Assembly (NCBI GenBank): GCA_026988115.1
Contig: JALSLV010000120.1
Coordinates: 1-64,000 of the forward strand
DNA from: Lysobacterales bacterium
GTDB lineage: Bacteria > Pseudomonadota > Gammaproteobacteria > Xanthomonadales > Marinicellaceae
Direction: 5' to 3'
Length of the DNA: 64,000 nucleotides
Shown: piece after piece, positions 11,470 through 59,924 of the stretch
Position numbering within the stretch: the first letter of the stretch is position 1
How the letters are laid out: each line of letters starts with the position of its first letter
The notes under the pieces: model-generated
Seen by the model: the letters and a program-made list of their open reading frames with translations, nothing else
What the model was told of the DNA's origin: nothing
The model's database searches: none
Translations under genes and position numbers: made by a program

Positions 11470-12159
11470 TTACCAGACTATTTCACATGCAAGGTAATTC
11501 CAAATTAATATTCGAACCTTTACACTTCCGATTGTAGGCGTAACTGAATATTGATAAATTCCGTTTTGAACAACAATCCAATTGTCAATCGGTATTTCCT
11601 CTGGAGTAATATACATATTCTGCATTGCTCGACTTCCAATTTCAGGTGTTTTCTGTAATTCCGTTGTCACAAAGAATGAGTTTAATTCCTCTTCGGTCAA
11701 TGTTTCGATTGGTACAAAACCTAAATGCTTTGGCTTTTCATATTTTCTATCGCTATTTTCATATTTTACGTGTCCATATGCTAATTTTAAAATGACATTC
11801 TCAATTCTTTCTGGTTCAATTTTAAAATAGGTTTCTCCATTTTCATTAATAAATGAGTTATCTAAACGAGCCTTTAATTTCTTTTTTCGTTTCAAGATTT
11901 TTATAATACTTTCTCTTGATAGTTTGTCCAAATCCGTTGTTCCTGAAATCAGGCACTCAATCATACAAGCAAAGTATTCCTCGTCTAATGAAAATCCGCT
12001 ATTACATTCCAAGCAACTTGGTACTACAGGAATATTTTCAGGAAAAGGTTTTTCAAGAAGGATTTTAGAAGGAACGTGGTCTCTTGTGTCAGGTAGTTTT
12101 CCGCAATAAGCACATTGAGTGTCTAATCTACTATCGCTAAATGTTTTTATTTGCCTCAA
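11470..12159 (-). CDS. HNH-endonuclease-like zinc-ribbon protein, cassette gene
   Basis: This 229-residue protein is not clearly assigned to a named family. The N-terminus holds C16-x2-C19, then D27-H28, then C49-x2-C52-N53 (CAYCGKLPDTRDHVPSK ... CLECNSGFS). This is the layout of a degenerate HNH/zinc-finger nuclease with two CxxC zinc knuckles. The rest (60-229) has no motif I recognise. The frame begins at a TTG (12159) just after an in-frame stop, so TTG or a downstream codon is the start. It is a single gene between an attC-like element at its 3' end and the repeat array at its 5' side, with neighbours of unrelated function. This fits a mobile cassette. Confidence 0.65.
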   Translation of the reverse strand: MRQIKTFSDSRLDTQCAYCGKLPDTRDHVPSKILLEKPFPENIPVVPSCLECNSGFSLDEEYFACMIECLISGTTDLDKLSRESIIKILKRKKKLKARLDNSFINENGETYFKIEPERIENVILKLAYGHVKYENSDRKYEKPKHLGFVPIETLTEEELNSFFVTTELQKTPEIGSRAMQNMYITPEEIPIDNWIVVQNGIYQYSVTPTIGSVKVRILIWNYLACEIVW

Positions 12160-12426
12160 TTTTCAATTCGATTTCTGGGTTTTCTTAAATGCTTGCTAAC
12201 ATTGTAATATACACACAACTGCATATAGCACGGATTATAAACTGTCTATATTACGAAGAATGACTCCGTAATGATTATTTTTTTCCGCTTGAAATATGAA
12301 AGAGCGTCTAAAATAAATTCTAGCGGATTGATTTATTGTAGCTTATGGGTGGTTTTGGGGCAATGGGTTTTTTATCTGTTTTTTGTGCGAGTTTTTGGTT
12401 TTTTTTGAAATTACGGTTGCTTTAAG
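12160..12426. other. Gene-free accessory DNA upstream of the HNH-like gene
   Basis: No gene is visible here. At 12197-12222 the plus strand starts TAACATTG and contains CAACTGC, loosely resembling the TAACG...GTTGC end of the attC-like elements. It may be a decayed half-site at the other border of the HNH cassette, but the match is weak. The rest is AT-rich and unstructured. Confidence 0.3.
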
Positions 12427-12460
12427 AGGTTGCCGCGTCGCTTATGCTCCTCGCAATGAC
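12427..12460. repeat. Right-arm fragment of the 107-bp palindromic element
   Basis: This 34-bp piece (GAGGTTGCCGCGTCGCTTAT...GCAATGAC) matches the right arm of the four complete elements at 12546, 12738, 13214 and 13690. Its left arm is missing. It marks the start of the tandem array: the first 192-bp unit runs from the base after it. Confidence 0.85.
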
Positions 12461-12844
12461 ATTTTAGTTTTTGATTTGTTTTATTCTATATTCAATTTGT
12501 GGGTTTTGCGATGAGTCTGCTACTTTAAAGTTTAAAAAGAATCAGGTCATTGCGAGGAGGGACGACGTGGCAATCTCATCAAGCTGTGGTATTTTTTGAA
12601 TTAGGGTTTAACGTTAGAAGATTGCCACGTCGCTAATGCTCCTCGCAATGACATTTTGGTTTTTGATTTGTTTTATTCTATATTCAATTTGTGGGTTTTG
12701 CGATGAGTCTGCTACTTTAAAGTTTAAAAAGAATCAGGTCATTGCGAGGAGGGACGACGTGGCAATCTCATCAAGCTGTGGTATTTTTTGAATTAGGGTT
12801 TAACGTTAGAAGATTACCACGTCGCTTATGCTCCTCGCAATGAC
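12461..12844. repeat. Two tandem 192-bp units, each ending in a 107-bp palindrome
   Basis: Units 12461-12652 and 12653-12844 are nearly identical with an exact 192-bp period. Each holds an 85-bp AT-rich spacer followed by a 107-bp element (12546-12652 and 12738-12844). The element has a left arm GTCATTGCGAGGAGGGACGA and a right arm ending GCTCCTCGCAATGAC, which pair over most of their length. The loop contains GGTATTTTTTGAATTAGGG. No protein is encoded. Confidence 0.9.
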
Positions 12845-12897
12845 GGTGTGTTTTTTGAAAATATGTTATACTTATCTCAGTTTTTAAGGATAATGAC

Positions 12898-13185
12898 ATG
12901 AAAAATGGATACGTTTATATCATCACCAATCAAAATAATACAGTTCTTTACACTGGGGTTACGAGTGATTTAATTTCGCGTATAGCACAACATAAAAATA
13001 AATTAATTAAAGGTTTTTCATCGCGATACAATTGTAATAAATTAGTTTATTATGAGATTGGCAGTGGAATGGAAGGCTGTATTTTAAGGGAGAAACAAAT
13101 TAAAGCAGGCTCTCGGTTGAAAAAGATTGAGTTGATAGAATCTGTTAATCCAAATTGGAAAGACTTATACCAAGATTTGCTATGA
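12898..13185 (+). CDS. GIY-YIG nuclease family protein, copy 1
   Basis: This 95-residue single-domain GIY-YIG endonuclease of the UvrC-N/YhbQ type has the variant motif Y5-V-Y7 ... Y18-T-G20 and the catalytic-type Arg28 and His32 in ISRIAQHK. The metal-binding Glu65 is in REKQIK, and the family C-terminus NPNWKDL is present. All key residues are intact, so it is probably active. It has its own extended -10 promoter and a good Shine-Dalgarno sequence (AAGGATAATGAC). It differs from copy 2 by only three bases, two of them silent and one giving Ile77 here versus Phe77. Position inside a palindrome array suggests that it acts on or spreads with that repeat. This is an inference. Confidence 0.9.
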   Translation: MKNGYVYIITNQNNTVLYTGVTSDLISRIAQHKNKLIKGFSSRYNCNKLVYYEIGSGMEGCILREKQIKAGSRLKKIELIESVNPNWKDLYQDLL

Positions 13186-13213
13186 CATTAATAGTAAAGT
13201 TCAAAAGAACTTT

Positions 13214-13320
13214 GTCATTGCGAGGAGGGACGACGTGGCAATCTCATTAAGTTGTGGTATTTTTTGAATTAGGGTTTAACGTTAGAAGATTGCCGCGTCG
13301 CTGATGCTCCTCGCAATGAC
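13214..13320. repeat. 107-bp palindromic element, copy 3
   Basis: It has the same length and arms as the copies at 12546 and 12738, with small changes in the loop (TCATTAAGTTG) and right arm (CCGCGTCGCTGATG). It lies between the two GIY-YIG genes and ends 476 bp before the end of copy 4. Confidence 0.9.
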
Positions 13321-13373
13321 GGTGTGTTTTTTGAAAATATGTTATACTTATCTCAGTTTTTAAGGATAATGAC

Positions 13374-13661
13374 ATGAAAAATGGATACGTTTATATCATC
13401 ACCAATCAAAACAATACAGTTCTTTACACTGGGGTTACGAGTGATTTAATTTCGCGTATAGCACAACATAAAAATAAATTAATTAAAGGTTTTTCATCGC
13501 GATACAATTGTAATAAATTAGTTTATTATGAGATTGGTAGTGGAATGGAAGGCTGTATTTTAAGGGAGAAACAAATTAAAGCAGGCTCTCGGTTGAAAAA
13601 GTTTGAGTTGATAGAATCTGTTAATCCAAATTGGAAAGACTTATACCAAGATTTGCTATGA
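13374..13661 (+). CDS. GIY-YIG nuclease family protein, copy 2
   Basis: This 95-residue protein is identical to copy 1 except Ile77 is Phe. The GIY-YIG motif residues (Tyr5, Tyr7, Tyr18, Gly20, Arg28, His32, Glu65) are all kept. Two silent changes (AAT to AAC, GGC to GGT) separate the genes. Retention of an intact frame in both copies suggests either a very recent duplication or selection on the protein. Confidence 0.9.
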   Translation: MKNGYVYIITNQNNTVLYTGVTSDLISRIAQHKNKLIKGFSSRYNCNKLVYYEIGSGMEGCILREKQIKAGSRLKKFELIESVNPNWKDLYQDLL

Positions 13662-13689
13662 CATTAATAGTAAAATTAAAAAGAACTTT

Positions 13690-13796
13690 GTCATTGCGAG
13701 GAGGGACGACGTGGCAATCTCATCAAGCTGTGGTATTTTTTGAATTAGGGTTTAATGTTAGAAGATTGCCGCGTCGCTTATGCTCCTCGCAATGAC
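13690..13796. repeat. 107-bp palindromic element, copy 4
   Basis: This is the last palindrome of the array, with the same arms as copies 1-3 and a loop containing TTTAATGTTAGAAG. Immediately after it the repeated sequence stops, so the array boundary coincides with the palindrome end. Confidence 0.9.
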
Positions 13797-24298: not shown

Positions 24299-26554
24299 AT
24301 GATTAAAAAAATATTAATTTACACGATATTCCTAACGCAAATAAGCTTGGCAGCTCCTAGTGATGATTTTGTTATCGAAGTGGATACAACTATTGTGGGT
24401 TCTACCACTAATCTACAATTTAAAATTAAAACATTAGGATTCGGAGTTGTATACAATTACAACGTCGATTGCGATGCTGTCAATGCAGGCACAAACACCG
24501 CAACTGCCCAAACAGGTGACTATACCTGTAATTATACAACAGCAGGGATTTATACCATCCGTATTTCGGATAATATTGGGGATAAAACAGGGTTTCCTCA
24601 CATTTATAATTTTGCAAACAATGATGCTAAAAAAATAACCGACCTTAAACAATGGGGAACAGGTATTTGGAGTTCTATGGAAAATGCTTTTAGAGGAGCA
24701 GAAAATATGGTGGTTACGGCTACCGATAGTCCTGATTTATCAAATGTAACAAATATGAGTAATATGTTTGCAAATGCAACCTCTGCCAATCCAAATACCA
24801 GTACTTGGAATACAAGCAGTGTAACAGATATGAGTTTTATGTTTTCAAGTGCAACCGATGCTAATCCAAATGTCAGTAGTTGGAATACAAGTAGTGTAAC
24901 AAATATGTTTGGTATGTTTGTGAGTGCAACTTCTGCCAATCCAAATGTCAGCCTGTGGAATACAAGCAGTGTAACAAATATGAGGTTTATGTTTAATGGT
25001 GCAATCGCAGCAACTCCAGATATGAGCGCTTGGGATATTACAGGACTTACTGTTCCAAATTCAATGGATAGTATGCTGCAAGGCATCACCCTACCAACCG
25101 CCTTATACGATGCCACATTGGCTAATTTTAATTCGCAAATCACAGCCAGTGGCATTGTCTTTGGTGTTGGTAACTCAAAATACTGCAATGTCGCAGCGCG
25201 AGATAGTTTGATTAATACCCATGGCTGGACTATTACTGATGGTGGTTTGGATGCAAACTGCCCAGGTCCTTTGGATGATTTAGTTATCGAAGTGGATACC
25301 ACTATAGCGGGTTCAACCACTAATTTACAATTTAATATTAAGACAAATGCTTTTTTGACTTACAACTACAACGTCGATTGCGATGCAGTCAATGCAGGTA
25401 CAAACACCGCCACAGCCCAAACAGGTGACTATACCTGTAATTATACAACAGCAGGGATTTATACCATCCGCATTTCGGATAATGTTGGGGATAAAACTGG
25501 TTTCCCACATTTTTATTCTTTATTAAATGAGGATGCTAAAAAAATAATTGACCTTAAACAATGGGGAACAAGTATTTGGAAGAGCATGTATTACGCTTTT
25601 TACAATGCTTCTAATATGATTGTATCTGCGGTTGATAATCCTGATTTATCTCAAACTTTAGATTTATCTTCGATGTTTAGATCTGCAACAAAAGCGGATC
25701 CAAACACTAGTTTCTGGAATACATCTAATATAACTAAAATGCCAAGCATGTTTAAGGACACAACCTTAGCCAACCCCGATACCAGTACTTGGAATACCAG
25801 CAGTGTAACAGATATGAGCCATATGTTTAGTGGTGCAACTTCTGCCAATCCAAATACCAGTACTTGGAATACCAGCAGTGTAACAGATATGAGTTTTATG
25901 TTTAAAGCTGCAACTTCTGCTAACCCCGATACCAGTGTTTGGAATACAAGCAATGTAACAAATATGAAGTCTATGTTTAATGGCGCAACCTCAGCCAATC
26001 CTGATGTGAGTAATTGGGTTATTACAAGCATTAGTGGAAGCGTATTAAGTAATATGACAAATATGTTTTTGGGGGTTACTTTACCAACAGCCAGTTACGA
26101 TGCCATGCTTGCTCACTTTAACTCTCAACTGGTTCAATCAGGCATAACATTTCATGGTGGTAACTCAAAATACTGCAATGTCGCAGCACGTGATAGTTTG
26201 ATTAATACCCATGGCTGGACTATTACCGATGGTGGTTTGGATGCCAATTGCAGCGATGTTATTTTTGAAAACAGTTTTGAAAATACCGTGGTTTTCAAAG
26301 CAGCAGACAAGCAATTTGTCTATGATTTTTCACAAGTCTCATCTTTAGAGTTGGATGACAATCCACTGTTGATTGCAACAGGAGTCGATTCGCAAAACAA
26401 TACGGTGGTAAAAATTTACCTAAGAAAAGACCTCGGCCAATTACAGATTCGCATGGACAGGCTTATGGGCAAAGAATCCGAAACAAATCAATGGCAAATA
26501 GGAAACTGGCAAAACACTGACAAAAAAAACCTAACAGTGATTCAATGGCAATAG
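24299..26554 (+). CDS. BspA-type (DUF285) repeat surface protein 2
   Basis: This 751-residue paralogue of the preceding gene starts 20 bp after its stop with a Shine-Dalgarno sequence (CAGGAAATAAG). A signal peptide (IKKILIYTIFLTQISLA) is followed by two modules of Ig-like part plus 25-residue repeats, about 4 and 5 repeats, with very regular SANPNTSTWNTSSVTDMSFM units. The last module ends at ~660 with WTITDGGLDANC. The motif VIFENSFEN follows, but unlike its siblings the protein continues for about 85 residues with a beta-rich tail. That tail may have been added by fusion or may be a domain the others lost. The near-identical modules suggest internal duplication. Confidence 0.87.
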   Translation: MIKKILIYTIFLTQISLAAPSDDFVIEVDTTIVGSTTNLQFKIKTLGFGVVYNYNVDCDAVNAGTNTATAQTGDYTCNYTTAGIYTIRISDNIGDKTGFPHIYNFANNDAKKITDLKQWGTGIWSSMENAFRGAENMVVTATDSPDLSNVTNMSNMFANATSANPNTSTWNTSSVTDMSFMFSSATDANPNVSSWNTSSVTNMFGMFVSATSANPNVSLWNTSSVTNMRFMFNGAIAATPDMSAWDITGLTVPNSMDSMLQGITLPTALYDATLANFNSQITASGIVFGVGNSKYCNVAARDSLINTHGWTITDGGLDANCPGPLDDLVIEVDTTIAGSTTNLQFNIKTNAFLTYNYNVDCDAVNAGTNTATAQTGDYTCNYTTAGIYTIRISDNVGDKTGFPHFYSLLNEDAKKIIDLKQWGTSIWKSMYYAFYNASNMIVSAVDNPDLSQTLDLSSMFRSATKADPNTSFWNTSNITKMPSMFKDTTLANPDTSTWNTSSVTDMSHMFSGATSANPNTSTWNTSSVTDMSFMFKAATSANPDTSVWNTSNVTNMKSMFNGATSANPDVSNWVITSISGSVLSNMTNMFLGVTLPTASYDAMLAHFNSQLVQSGITFHGGNSKYCNVAARDSLINTHGWTITDGGLDANCSDVIFENSFENTVVFKAADKQFVYDFSQVSSLELDDNPLLIATGVDSQNNTVVKIYLRKDLGQLQIRMDRLMGKESETNQWQIGNWQNTDKKNLTVIQWQ

Positions 26555-26578: not shown

Positions 26579-29290
26579 ATGATGATTAAAAAAATATTAA
26601 TTTACACGATATTCCTAACGCAATTGGGCGTGTCGGCTCCTAGTGATGATTTTGTCATTCGGGTTAAAACTGATAATCCAGGGTTCACCACTGCTGAAAT
26701 GTTTCGTATTCCAACAAAAAATGCATTGACCTACAATTATAATGTCGATTGCAATGATGATGGCATTGATGAAGTCACTGGGCAAACAGGCGATTATTAT
26801 TGCGACTATTCATTTACTGGCTTAAATTTGGGAGCAGGGACTTACACCATTCGCATCACAGACAATGTGGGTGATGGTACGGGTTTTCCGAGTATAAATT
26901 TCAACAACACTTTTGATCGCTTAAAAATTATCGAAGTGGTGCAATGGGGAACGGGCAAATGGACAAATATGCAACGCAGCTTTTACGGTGCAGAAAATAT
27001 GATTGTTTCTGCAACCGATACGCCTGATTTTTCTCAAGTTACCACCATGGAAAGCATGTTCCGCCGTGCATTTATGGCAAATCCTGATACCAGTATGTGG
27101 GATACTTCGAGTGTAACAAACATGAAAAGCCTGTTTAATGAAGCGCAAGTTGCCACACCCGATACTTCCAATTGGGATACGCACTTGGTAACGGACATGA
27201 GTTTTATGTTTCGCCATGCTTTTTTGGCTCGTCCCATAGTCGGTAGTTGGGATATTTCCAATGTAACTGACATGACTGCCATGTTTAGTGCGGTGAGTTT
27301 GCCTTTTAATACCTATGATAGAATTTTAATTGAGTTTGCCGCTAAGACAGTGCAAATGAATGTGCCATTTAGTGCAGGGACAAGCAATTATTGTTCGCAA
27401 AATGCCCAAAATGCCAGATTGCTTTTACAAAATACCCACAATTGGTCAATTACCGATGGAAATTTATGTGCCTCGCCAGCAATCACCAAAGATTTTGTCT
27501 TTAAGGTTGATACTACCATTCCTGTGATTGCAGGAGGTACATCCAATACAGAATACAAAATTAGAATAAATCCAAGTTATACTTATAATTACAATGTGGA
27601 TTGCAACAATGATGGCAGCGATGAAGGCACTGCTTTAAACTCTGATTTTATTTGTGATTATTCTGCTCTTGGTGGAGCAGGTATTTACACCATCAGAATT
27701 AAAGACAATAATGGTGATAATCGAGGTTTTAGTGGCTTTGGTTTGGTTGGTGCATCTACGGATTATGATCAAAAGAAAATTATTGAGTTGATTCAATGGG
27801 GAACATTTAAATGGCAAACGCTGGAACAAGCATTTCTAAGAGCTTCAAATATGTATGTTACGGCATTAGATATTCCTGACTTTTCCGAAGTGATTAGTAC
27901 CAATAGCATGTTTACTGGAGCCTTTTTTGCCAATCCTACTACTAAGTTTTGGGATACCTCAAATATCGAAGACATGAACTCTATGTTTAAATCCGCACTG
28001 AGTGCAAAACCAGATACCAGTCTGTGGGATACGGCCTTTGTCACCTCAATGGCGTCCATGTTTAGAGGTGCCGTTAGTGCCAATCCCGATACCAGTTCTT
28101 GGGATACATCCAGTGTGCAGAACATGACAGCCATGTTTAGAGGTGCCACTAATGCCAATCCCGATACCAGTTCTTGGAATACCTCCAGTGTAAAAACCAT
28201 GGAATCCATGTTTCGCGGTGCAACAAGTGCCAATCCTGATACCCGCAATTGGGATGTATCTGAAGTGACTACCATGTTGTTTATGTTTAAAGATGTCACA
28301 CTACCAACGGTTAATTACGATGCAATATTGGTTGCTTTTGAGTCCCAAATAGTAAAGAACGGAGTTGATTTTGATGGTGGCAATTCACACTATTGTTCAA
28401 AAGCGGCACAACTGGCTCATGATAAGTTGCAAAGTAATTTTGCTTGGACTATAACTGATTTAGGCTTATGTGCTGCCAGTGACCCGGCAAATGATTTTGT
28501 CATCACGGTAAAAACAGACAACACTGGGTCATCAGCAGATGACCAATTTATGATTTTTGTAAATAATAGTGTCACAAACCATTACAATGTGGATTGCAAC
28601 AATGATGGTGTGAATGAAATATTAGGAGCTACCACCACGCATAATTGCGATTATTCACCTTTTAATTTAAATACAGGGCCTGGTGTTTACACTATTCGCA
28701 TTAAAGATGTTATTGGGGATGGTACGGGGTTGGCTGGGTTTAATTTTTCACCAGATGGCGACAAAATTTTGTCGGTGGAACAATGGGGAACTGCTCAATG
28801 GCAATCGACTTCTTTCATGTTTAGTGATACGTCAAACCTAGTCATTAATGCCATTGATATACCTGATTTTTCACAAGTAATAAATATGTCAGATATGTTT
28901 TTACGCAGTCCATTAGTCAATCCCGATACCCGTCGTTGGGATGTTTCTCAAGTGATTAGTATGAAGGACATGTTTGCATTAGCGATTAATGCCAGACCTA
29001 ATATTGATAGTTGGAATATGTCACAAGTATTATCCATGGAGGAAATGTTTGGATTGGTCAGTTTAGAAAGCAGTTATTATGATCATTTGTTGATACAACT
29101 CGAGGCTAAAAATGTACAACCCAATGTTCTTTTTGGCGGGTCTATTTCCACTTACACTTATTGTTCACAAGCAGCGCAATTGGCTCGCATGAGTTTAATA
29201 AATGATGACTTATGGACTATTGGTGACGGAGGCTTAGATCCAAATTGTCAGCCTCTTCCTGATTTGTTGTTTGCTAATGGCTTTGAATGA
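26579..29290 (+). CDS. BspA-type (DUF285) repeat surface protein 3
   Basis: This third tandem paralogue has 903 residues. Its first ~17 residues (IKKILIYTIFLTQ) are identical to those of protein 2, showing recent duplication. Three modules follow, with about 3, 5 and 2 BspA repeats. Each module is preceded by a calcium-loop-like DCNDDGI/DCNNDGS/DCNNDGV segment and a QWGT-x-(K/Q)W motif. It ends PDLLFANGFE. It begins 24 bp after protein 2 (two possible ATG starts, 26579 or 26582), and a strong terminator follows, so the three genes form one operon. Confidence 0.88.
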   Translation: MMIKKILIYTIFLTQLGVSAPSDDFVIRVKTDNPGFTTAEMFRIPTKNALTYNYNVDCNDDGIDEVTGQTGDYYCDYSFTGLNLGAGTYTIRITDNVGDGTGFPSINFNNTFDRLKIIEVVQWGTGKWTNMQRSFYGAENMIVSATDTPDFSQVTTMESMFRRAFMANPDTSMWDTSSVTNMKSLFNEAQVATPDTSNWDTHLVTDMSFMFRHAFLARPIVGSWDISNVTDMTAMFSAVSLPFNTYDRILIEFAAKTVQMNVPFSAGTSNYCSQNAQNARLLLQNTHNWSITDGNLCASPAITKDFVFKVDTTIPVIAGGTSNTEYKIRINPSYTYNYNVDCNNDGSDEGTALNSDFICDYSALGGAGIYTIRIKDNNGDNRGFSGFGLVGASTDYDQKKIIELIQWGTFKWQTLEQAFLRASNMYVTALDIPDFSEVISTNSMFTGAFFANPTTKFWDTSNIEDMNSMFKSALSAKPDTSLWDTAFVTSMASMFRGAVSANPDTSSWDTSSVQNMTAMFRGATNANPDTSSWNTSSVKTMESMFRGATSANPDTRNWDVSEVTTMLFMFKDVTLPTVNYDAILVAFESQIVKNGVDFDGGNSHYCSKAAQLAHDKLQSNFAWTITDLGLCAASDPANDFVITVKTDNTGSSADDQFMIFVNNSVTNHYNVDCNNDGVNEILGATTTHNCDYSPFNLNTGPGVYTIRIKDVIGDGTGLAGFNFSPDGDKILSVEQWGTAQWQSTSFMFSDTSNLVINAIDIPDFSQVINMSDMFLRSPLVNPDTRRWDVSQVISMKDMFALAINARPNIDSWNMSQVLSMEEMFGLVSLESSYYDHLLIQLEAKNVQPNVLFGGSISTYTYCSQAAQLARMSLINDDLWTIGDGGLDPNCQPLPDLLFANGFE

Positions 29291-59837: not shown

Positions 59838-59924
59838 GTCATTGCGAGGAGGGACGACGTGGCAATCTTTATGACCTACGTTTACTTTGGGAGATTGCCG
59901 TGTCGCTGCGCTTCTCGCAATGAC
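59838..59924. repeat. Solo copy of the palindromic element (87 bp)
   Basis: Its arms GTCATTGCGAGGAGGGACGA (left) and TTCTCGCAATGAC (right end) match those of the 12.5-13.8 kb array, but the loop is different and shorter (TTATGACCTACG). No GIY-YIG gene is nearby. It is a separate insertion of the same family. Confidence 0.85.

Follow-up and report, generated by a model that had tools for sequence, protein, structure and literature searches.

What connects a small GIY-YIG nuclease to the palindromes between which its gene is repeated? The question is raised by an array at positions 12396-13796 of the window, by which we mean the whole stretch of 64,000 nucleotides analysed here, taken from a Lysobacterales bacterium (GCA_026988115.1, contig JALSLV010000120.1, positions 1-64,000, forward strand). 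A sequence-only reading had described this array as a half-element followed by units of 192, 192, 476 and 476 bp, and had likened it to REP elements and their RAYT transposases, with a GIY-YIG enzyme as the linked protein. We recovered the same layout, in which half a palindrome is followed by four complete ones of 107 bp, with successive ends 192, 192, 476 and 476 bp apart, all features being listed here on the forward strand. The right half of a palindrome lies at 12396..12460 (a BLAST match to palindrome positions 42-107 with 84% identity), and the four complete copies, with their GTC tags facing outward, at 12546..12652, 12738..12844, 13214..13320 and 13690..13796, the last forming the right end of the array; all four are recognized by sequence and BLAST, and the first and last also by folding. 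The two 476-bp units each hold an intact 95-residue open reading frame, at 12898..13185 (PF01541, E 1.2e-15, with the conserved catalytic residues and the AGSR subtype discussed below) and at 13374..13661 (PF01541, E 1.1e-15). The second copy differs from the first by three bases and one residue. The duplication is recent, since just 3 of 288 bases separate the gene copies and the palindromes differ from one another at 2-5 of their 107 bases.

The 192-bp units lack the gene, as had been claimed, and consist of a palindrome and an 85-bp spacer (12461..12545 and 12653..12737). When compared with the gene-bearing spacer, the first of these scored 23 against a shuffled mean of 21.5 and maximum of 37, on which ground we reject an origin of the 192-bp unit from the 476-bp unit by deletion. 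The gene had also been credited with an extended -10 promoter of its own: a possible one (TGTTATACT) can be picked out by eye at 12864..12872, but a consensus scan, which returned fewer promoter-like sites than shuffles did (3 versus 5.1), lists none there. An AAGGA ribosome-binding site, likewise read by eye, stands at 12886-12890. As for the earlier claim that every unit ends exactly at the end of a palindrome, it does not hold literally inside the array, because any phase can be chosen for a tandem unit and because about 13 nucleotides of similarity (GGTGTnTTTTTTG) extend beyond the last palindrome. It does hold elsewhere in the genome of the window, where palindromes with unrelated flanks start and stop at GTC...GAC. 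To the left of the array, on the reverse strand at 11470-12159, is an open reading frame with a CxxC...DHVP...CxxC pattern, which we take to resemble an HNH nuclease.

Each arm of the palindrome begins with GTC, ATTGC and GAG and, after an inner part that varies, closes with CGAA or CGTG, GCAAT and C. The palindrome consists of two such arms in inverted orientation, each a REP-like hairpin in which the GTC forms an unpaired foot and ATTGC pairs with GCAAT. Folded as single-stranded DNA, the dimer reaches -29.8 kcal/mol (z -8.4); single arms from the window do not surpass shuffles in their folding (88 and 105 of 200), and several other lineages have arms that fold and leave the GTC foot free. 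Compensatory changes point the same way: of 169 arms lying close to relatives of the gene, 16 differ from the TT consensus at two positions of the stem, and in a search that left the partner letters free, 14 of these 16 (10 loci) proved to carry the complementary partner. A search of Rfam gave nothing beyond sub-threshold miRNA matches.

Such repeats are far from confined to the array. The window alone has 11 occurrences of GTCATTGCGAGGAG with up to two mismatches (0.22 expected; 0/100 shuffles), among them a gene-free dimer at 59838..59924 on the forward strand, with GTCATTGCGAGGAG in opposite orientations as its arms, at 59838 and 59911, which is kept in the relative G029 (locus L026 versus L341). 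Across the genome of the window (3.51 Mb in 121 contigs) matches to the palindrome fall at 50 distinct places, grouped into 40 clusters on 17 contigs, of which three make up the array and 37 lie away from an intact GIY-YIG gene. No target-site duplication was visible by eye at 17 of its copies in this genome. In a trivial sense, then, the palindrome is distributed independently of the gene, as is also the case in REP/RAYT systems; the linkage was tested from the side of the gene.

The encoded protein is the sole product of its unit and stands free between palindromes, with neither an intron or intein nor any known transposase. Its AlphaFold2 model is a confident single domain (pLDDT 95.2), and Y7, Y18, G20, R28, H32, E65 and N84 are invariant in 28 sequences. 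The nearest solved folds are UPF0213 BH0048, followed by Slx1 and UvrC, with E below 0.001 for UPF0213 BH0048 alone; in sequence and fold the protein is closest to UPF0213 and other small single-domain GIY-YIG proteins and to Slx1, none of which is, to our knowledge, linked to repeats. With GIY-YIG homing endonucleases of the I-TevI type it shares a GIY-YIG catalytic domain in a mobile gene; unlike these, which belong to introns or inteins, it is a catalytic domain of 95 residues and nothing more, linked to REP hairpins. We found no NCBIfam family for it and no relative in phage records. The genome of the window has two matches to it at E 0.01, its other GIY-YIG matches being UvrC and one partial match. 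The family occurs in 120 of 397 Pseudomonadota genomes, with up to six copies per genome, and in 33 records of a plasmid collection, several of which are chromosome-sized. On plasmid p1 of Planktothrix agardhii (L142) the gene lies between those for an MmeI-type restriction enzyme and DISARM drmA, and four loci (L065, L078, L084 and L088) show two matches to the protein each, L084 together with 33 motif matches.

These properties bear on the possibility that the protein is a host nuclease, domesticated for a regulatory or protective role, which trims or resolves REP cruciforms and sits near REPs for the control of its own expression, without mobilizing anything. Slx1, a branched-DNA nuclease, is indeed among the nearest folds, and many genomes carry a single copy of the gene. 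However, the patchy distribution with up to six copies, the diverse stems encountered within one genome (see below), and a decayed copy in the genome of the window, where a REP dimer on contig C112 (L009) is followed by the first codons of the gene and then a deletion, are together the behaviour of a mobile gene, and make such a host function improbable. The counterpart of the decayed locus in G029 (L113) retains the dimer, the gene and a second, degenerate dimer.

We examined the linkage of gene and repeat in the best 80 GTDB loci out of at least 559 confirmed relatives, selected by the protein alone (54-85% identity). The motif GTCATTGCGAG, allowing one mismatch, occurred within 600 bp of the gene in 74 of these 80 loci, whereas 50 letter-shuffled motifs were found in a mean of 0.78 and at most 3 of the 80; seen from its own side, the GIY-YIG gene is strongly linked to the palindrome. 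The density of the motif is 6.06 per kb at 0-300 bp from the gene, 1.09 at 300-600 bp and 0.05-0.40 per kb beyond 600 bp. The loci with the motif span about 15 phylum-level groups, as assigned by hand from the titles of sequence records, including Omnitrophota, Cyanobacteria, Chloroflexota, Bacteroidota, Bacillota and CPR. The motif was absent within 600 bp from six loci (L047, L054, L078, L079, L083 and L104), among which L078 and L083 carry other GTC-tagged inverted repeats and L104 begins 62 bp before the gene.

The same repeat emerges when no motif is supplied, with the proviso that the loci of these later sets include some duplicates or orthologues, since L033 and L113 are identical in sequence. 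GTCATT is the top 6-mer within 150 bp of the gene (92 of 116 loci, versus 22 of 116 at 1.0-1.15 kb), and an inverted-repeat word of at least 11 links the two flanks of the gene in 68 of 114 loci versus 0.4% of shuffles. When all 64 trinucleotides were scored de novo as possible feet of two or more hairpins that share a stem, GTC came first with 139 of 205 loci, the next reaching 65 and the median being 16.5. It was first again in 89 Pseudomonadota loci (58), with TCA (48) and CAT (45) close behind, which we read as register shifts of GTCAT. GTCA followed by a stem of at least 6 bp was present within 200 bp of the gene in 104 of 223 loci, as against 21 at 400-600 bp. A cruder scan for perfect stems of at least 6 bp separated GTC poorly from the next foot (36 versus 32 of 116 loci), because the stem of the ATTGC type has 5 bp.

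While the foot is constant, the stem varies. Of 247 loci, 198 could be given a stem label and 49 remained unlabelled; ATTGC (56), ATTCC (39), ATCCC (13), ATTCT (10), ATCCT (8), ATGCC (7) and ATGCT (6) lead the rarer types. Among the more distant relatives, the gene of Neisseria gonorrhoeae (L141) is flanked by the dRS3 sequence itself, with its ATTCC stem. The rhizobia Shinella and Sinorhizobium have ATCCTCGGG, Sphingobium ACCCCGGG and Planktothrix ATTCTGAG, and one cyanobacterium shows an ATTCT stem with the GTC foot kept; beside the gene of Rhizobium K1/93 (L146) no GTC-foot hairpin was found. Paralogues within one genome can have different stems, for example ATTGC, ATGCC and ATTCC in G157.

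Comparison with the protein tree shows that the stem type follows the protein and not the host. Among 191 labelled proteins, the nearest one from another genome had the same stem in 84 cases (shuffle mean 24.3, maximum 39). Permuting the labels within each of 18 genomes (45 genes), by which the effect of the host is removed, gave a mean of 6.6 and a maximum of 16 against the observed 18, which none of 2000 permutations reached; the stem labels are mechanical and noisy, which should have weakened this signal rather than created it. Mutual information with the stem, by statistics that ignore kinship, is highest at residues 70, 71, 72 and 75, and residues 70-72, being either AGS or of the form xWx, predict the stem: among labelled proteins, ATTGC accompanies 54 of the 67 with xGSR and 0 of the 114 with xWxR, kinship again being ignored and 16 of the 247 proteins falling outside the search pattern. 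In the three genomes examined that have both subtypes (G157, G206 and G020), ATTGC accompanies the GSR copy and none of the W copies. The association of the gene with its repeats, and the cognacy of the two, are demonstrated by these comparisons.

Such cognacy is not expected if the gene were a bystander in REP-rich intergenic DNA, with the REPs being mobilized by RAYT or IS transposases. There are eight matches to Y1 transposases in the genome of the window, but none of the five Y1 loci examined had the motif within 1.4 kb, and one survey reports that CGTC repeats flanked none of the tyrosine transposase genes (Di Nocera, De Gregorio, Rocco 2013, PMC3733652). We regard the bystander account as very remote indeed.

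The same survey provides the link to known repeats. CGTC REPs are presented there as one of two large REP superfamilies, including dRS3 of Neisseria and RPE-4 and RPE-6 of Rickettsia, with a tag (CGTC or TGTC) left unpaired at one end, a stem of 8-9 bp starting with AT, dimers in opposite orientation and high copy number; they "apparently lack a dedicated transposase", no enzyme is named, and the mobilizer is left open (PMC3733652). The repeat of the window resembles them, as they are described there, in its unpaired GTC tag, the AT at the start of the stem, dimers of opposite orientation and many copies, and differs in its ATTGC outer stem of 5 bp with an internal loop. In the 198 labelled loci, with 468 hairpins, GTC is preceded by C in 294 hairpins and by T in 123 (by G or T in the dimers of the window), the stem starts with A in 421 followed by T in 414, and stems of 8-9 bp are found in many relatives. 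To the enzyme-less account of the survey, the GIY-YIG link is the point we add. Our search, which covered open-licence papers in PMC, found no link of GIY-YIG to REPs, and a term search of PMC12306157 and PMC6006769 gave no GIY term.

At the level of genomes, the family is present in 19 of 24 with at least eight dRS3-type REPs versus 101 of 373 others (odds ratio 10, p 4.5e-7, kinship ignored). Four genomes with 490, 248, 176 and 127 exact dRS3-type REPs (G117, G081, G093 and G059, respectively) all have the family. Seven REP-rich genomes lacked it at E 1e-12, and six of these still lacked it at E 0.01; REPs hence persist without the family, as would be expected if the repeats outlive the enzyme.

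Evidence on mobility comes from pairs of related loci. In three of ten inspected pairs (L225/L259, L143/L144 and L031/L113) the shared unit starts exactly at the GTC tag and the DNA outside is unrelated; its 3' end lies within 5 bases of the inverted tag in the first two and about 12 bases beyond it in the third. In the other seven the limits are blurred, with no 5' boundary exactly at the tag: one unit runs several bases past it, and others begin inside the hairpin or at the gene. On Shinella plasmids, three records have the gene with 4-5 REP arms between two host genes, and all seven other records compared have neither the gene nor any REP arm in that stretch; at about 85% identity, the ends of this insertion could not be placed. 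No base-exact empty site was found. The array of the window has no clean empty counterpart either: G027 and G020 have other DNA, with no palindrome, left of the neighbouring gene, and the G029 contig breaks before the site.

It could be supposed that the nuclease homes to REPs, cutting existing hairpins so that its gene enters by recombinational repair, the dimers themselves being spread by something else. The genes often lie within clusters of several REPs, arrangements other than GTC, gene and inverted GTC are common (136 of 198), and the gene stands between two complete dimers in the window and in L113. Nevertheless, the three pairs whose units start at the tag amid unrelated DNA, and the Shinella sites that retain no REP where the gene is missing, argue against homing, which we consider unlikely though the least so of the alternatives.

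Instead, we propose that CGTC-type REPs probably have the GIY-YIG nuclease as their dedicated enzyme, just as GTAG REPs have RAYT. The analogy drawn in the sequence-only reading is upheld by the linkage at 74 of 80 loci, the first rank of GTC among 64 feet, the joint presence or absence of gene and repeats in Shinella, the stem that follows the protein within genomes, and the protein patch that predicts the stem. As in REP-RAYT systems (REPtrons, REPINs and GTAG REPs), an enzyme encoded by a single gene is flanked by hairpins with a tag, a specific repeat type belongs to each enzyme, and gene-free dimers are many; there a GTAG tag goes with an HUH tyrosine transposase, whereas here a GTC tag goes with a GIY-YIG nuclease. 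MITEs and small insertion sequences likewise have inverted ends and gene-free derivatives, but differ in that here no DDE transposase and no target-site duplication was found. As every enzyme variant is matched by a particular repeat variant, the 95-residue GIY-YIG protein may be the missing REP enzyme, on which a large family of palindromic repeats in bacteria would depend.

Under this proposal, the gene and its flanking hairpins would constitute a minimal mobile element, often with a GTC hairpin, the gene and an inverted GTC hairpin in about 370-450 bp (the nearest arms are so arranged in 39 of the 80 loci and 62 of the 198 labelled ones), and in the window with a dimer, the gene and a dimer; the dimers without a gene elsewhere in the genome would be non-autonomous derivatives of it. 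The hairpins may extrude as single strands or cruciforms, with which the compensatory changes are consistent; the nuclease would then recognize its own stem type through helix residues at about 70-75, as suggested by their correlation with the stem, and nick near the GTC foot; and host replication and recombination could copy the element, or insert it, elsewhere or within a different REP. Binding and cleavage of the hairpin by the protein, and transposition thereby, are what we infer. Since GIY-YIG enzymes form no covalent intermediate when they hydrolyse DNA, we assign no enzyme to the strand-joining step. In a bolder form, a GIY-YIG nuclease that stands alone and has GTC-tagged hairpin ends of its own would represent a new class of transposable element spread over about 15 phylum-level groups, the source of a large part of the CGTC-type repeats in bacteria (dRS3, RPE and relatives), moving by nick and recombination without a classical transposase and drawing its stem specificity from the helix patch at about 70-75; on this wider claim our judgement is evenly divided.

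With a linked cognate enzyme, the mobilization of CGTC REPs becomes directly testable with a protein of 95 residues and short DNA hairpins. If the proposal is true, a mobile repeat family has as its central enzyme a hydrolytic GIY-YIG nuclease instead of a transposase, and should transposition by the nuclease be shown, the class would be a new one, beyond the kind that pairs a REP with an enzyme. Residues 70-75 set against the stem sequence also offer a small code of protein-DNA specificity, open to swapping.

The tandem expansion from which the question arose is a property separate from the link between gene and REP. It had been suggested that the nuclease drives the amplification; this we reject as unproven, for units without the gene also vary in tandem number between the genome of the window and G029 (4 versus 1 on C70, 3 versus 2 on C35 and 2 versus 1 on C107). 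The array is most simply explained by unequal recombination between directly repeated dimers, and would have arisen later than the element itself. A copy of the 192-type unit in G029 (L327, 1448-1619; 172 bp, 92% identical) lies at the junction of sequences that are on different contigs in the genome of the window, which is suggestive of movement; as the junction is rearranged, we do not take it as proof. In Sinorhizobium meliloti (L144), a second match to the end of the gene and a REP precede the gene, a partial tandem copy as in the window. Elsewhere in the window, a 75-bp coding repeat forms three further arrays (24745-24994, 25779-26001 and 27996-28243), its unit presumably resembling the repeats of surface proteins.
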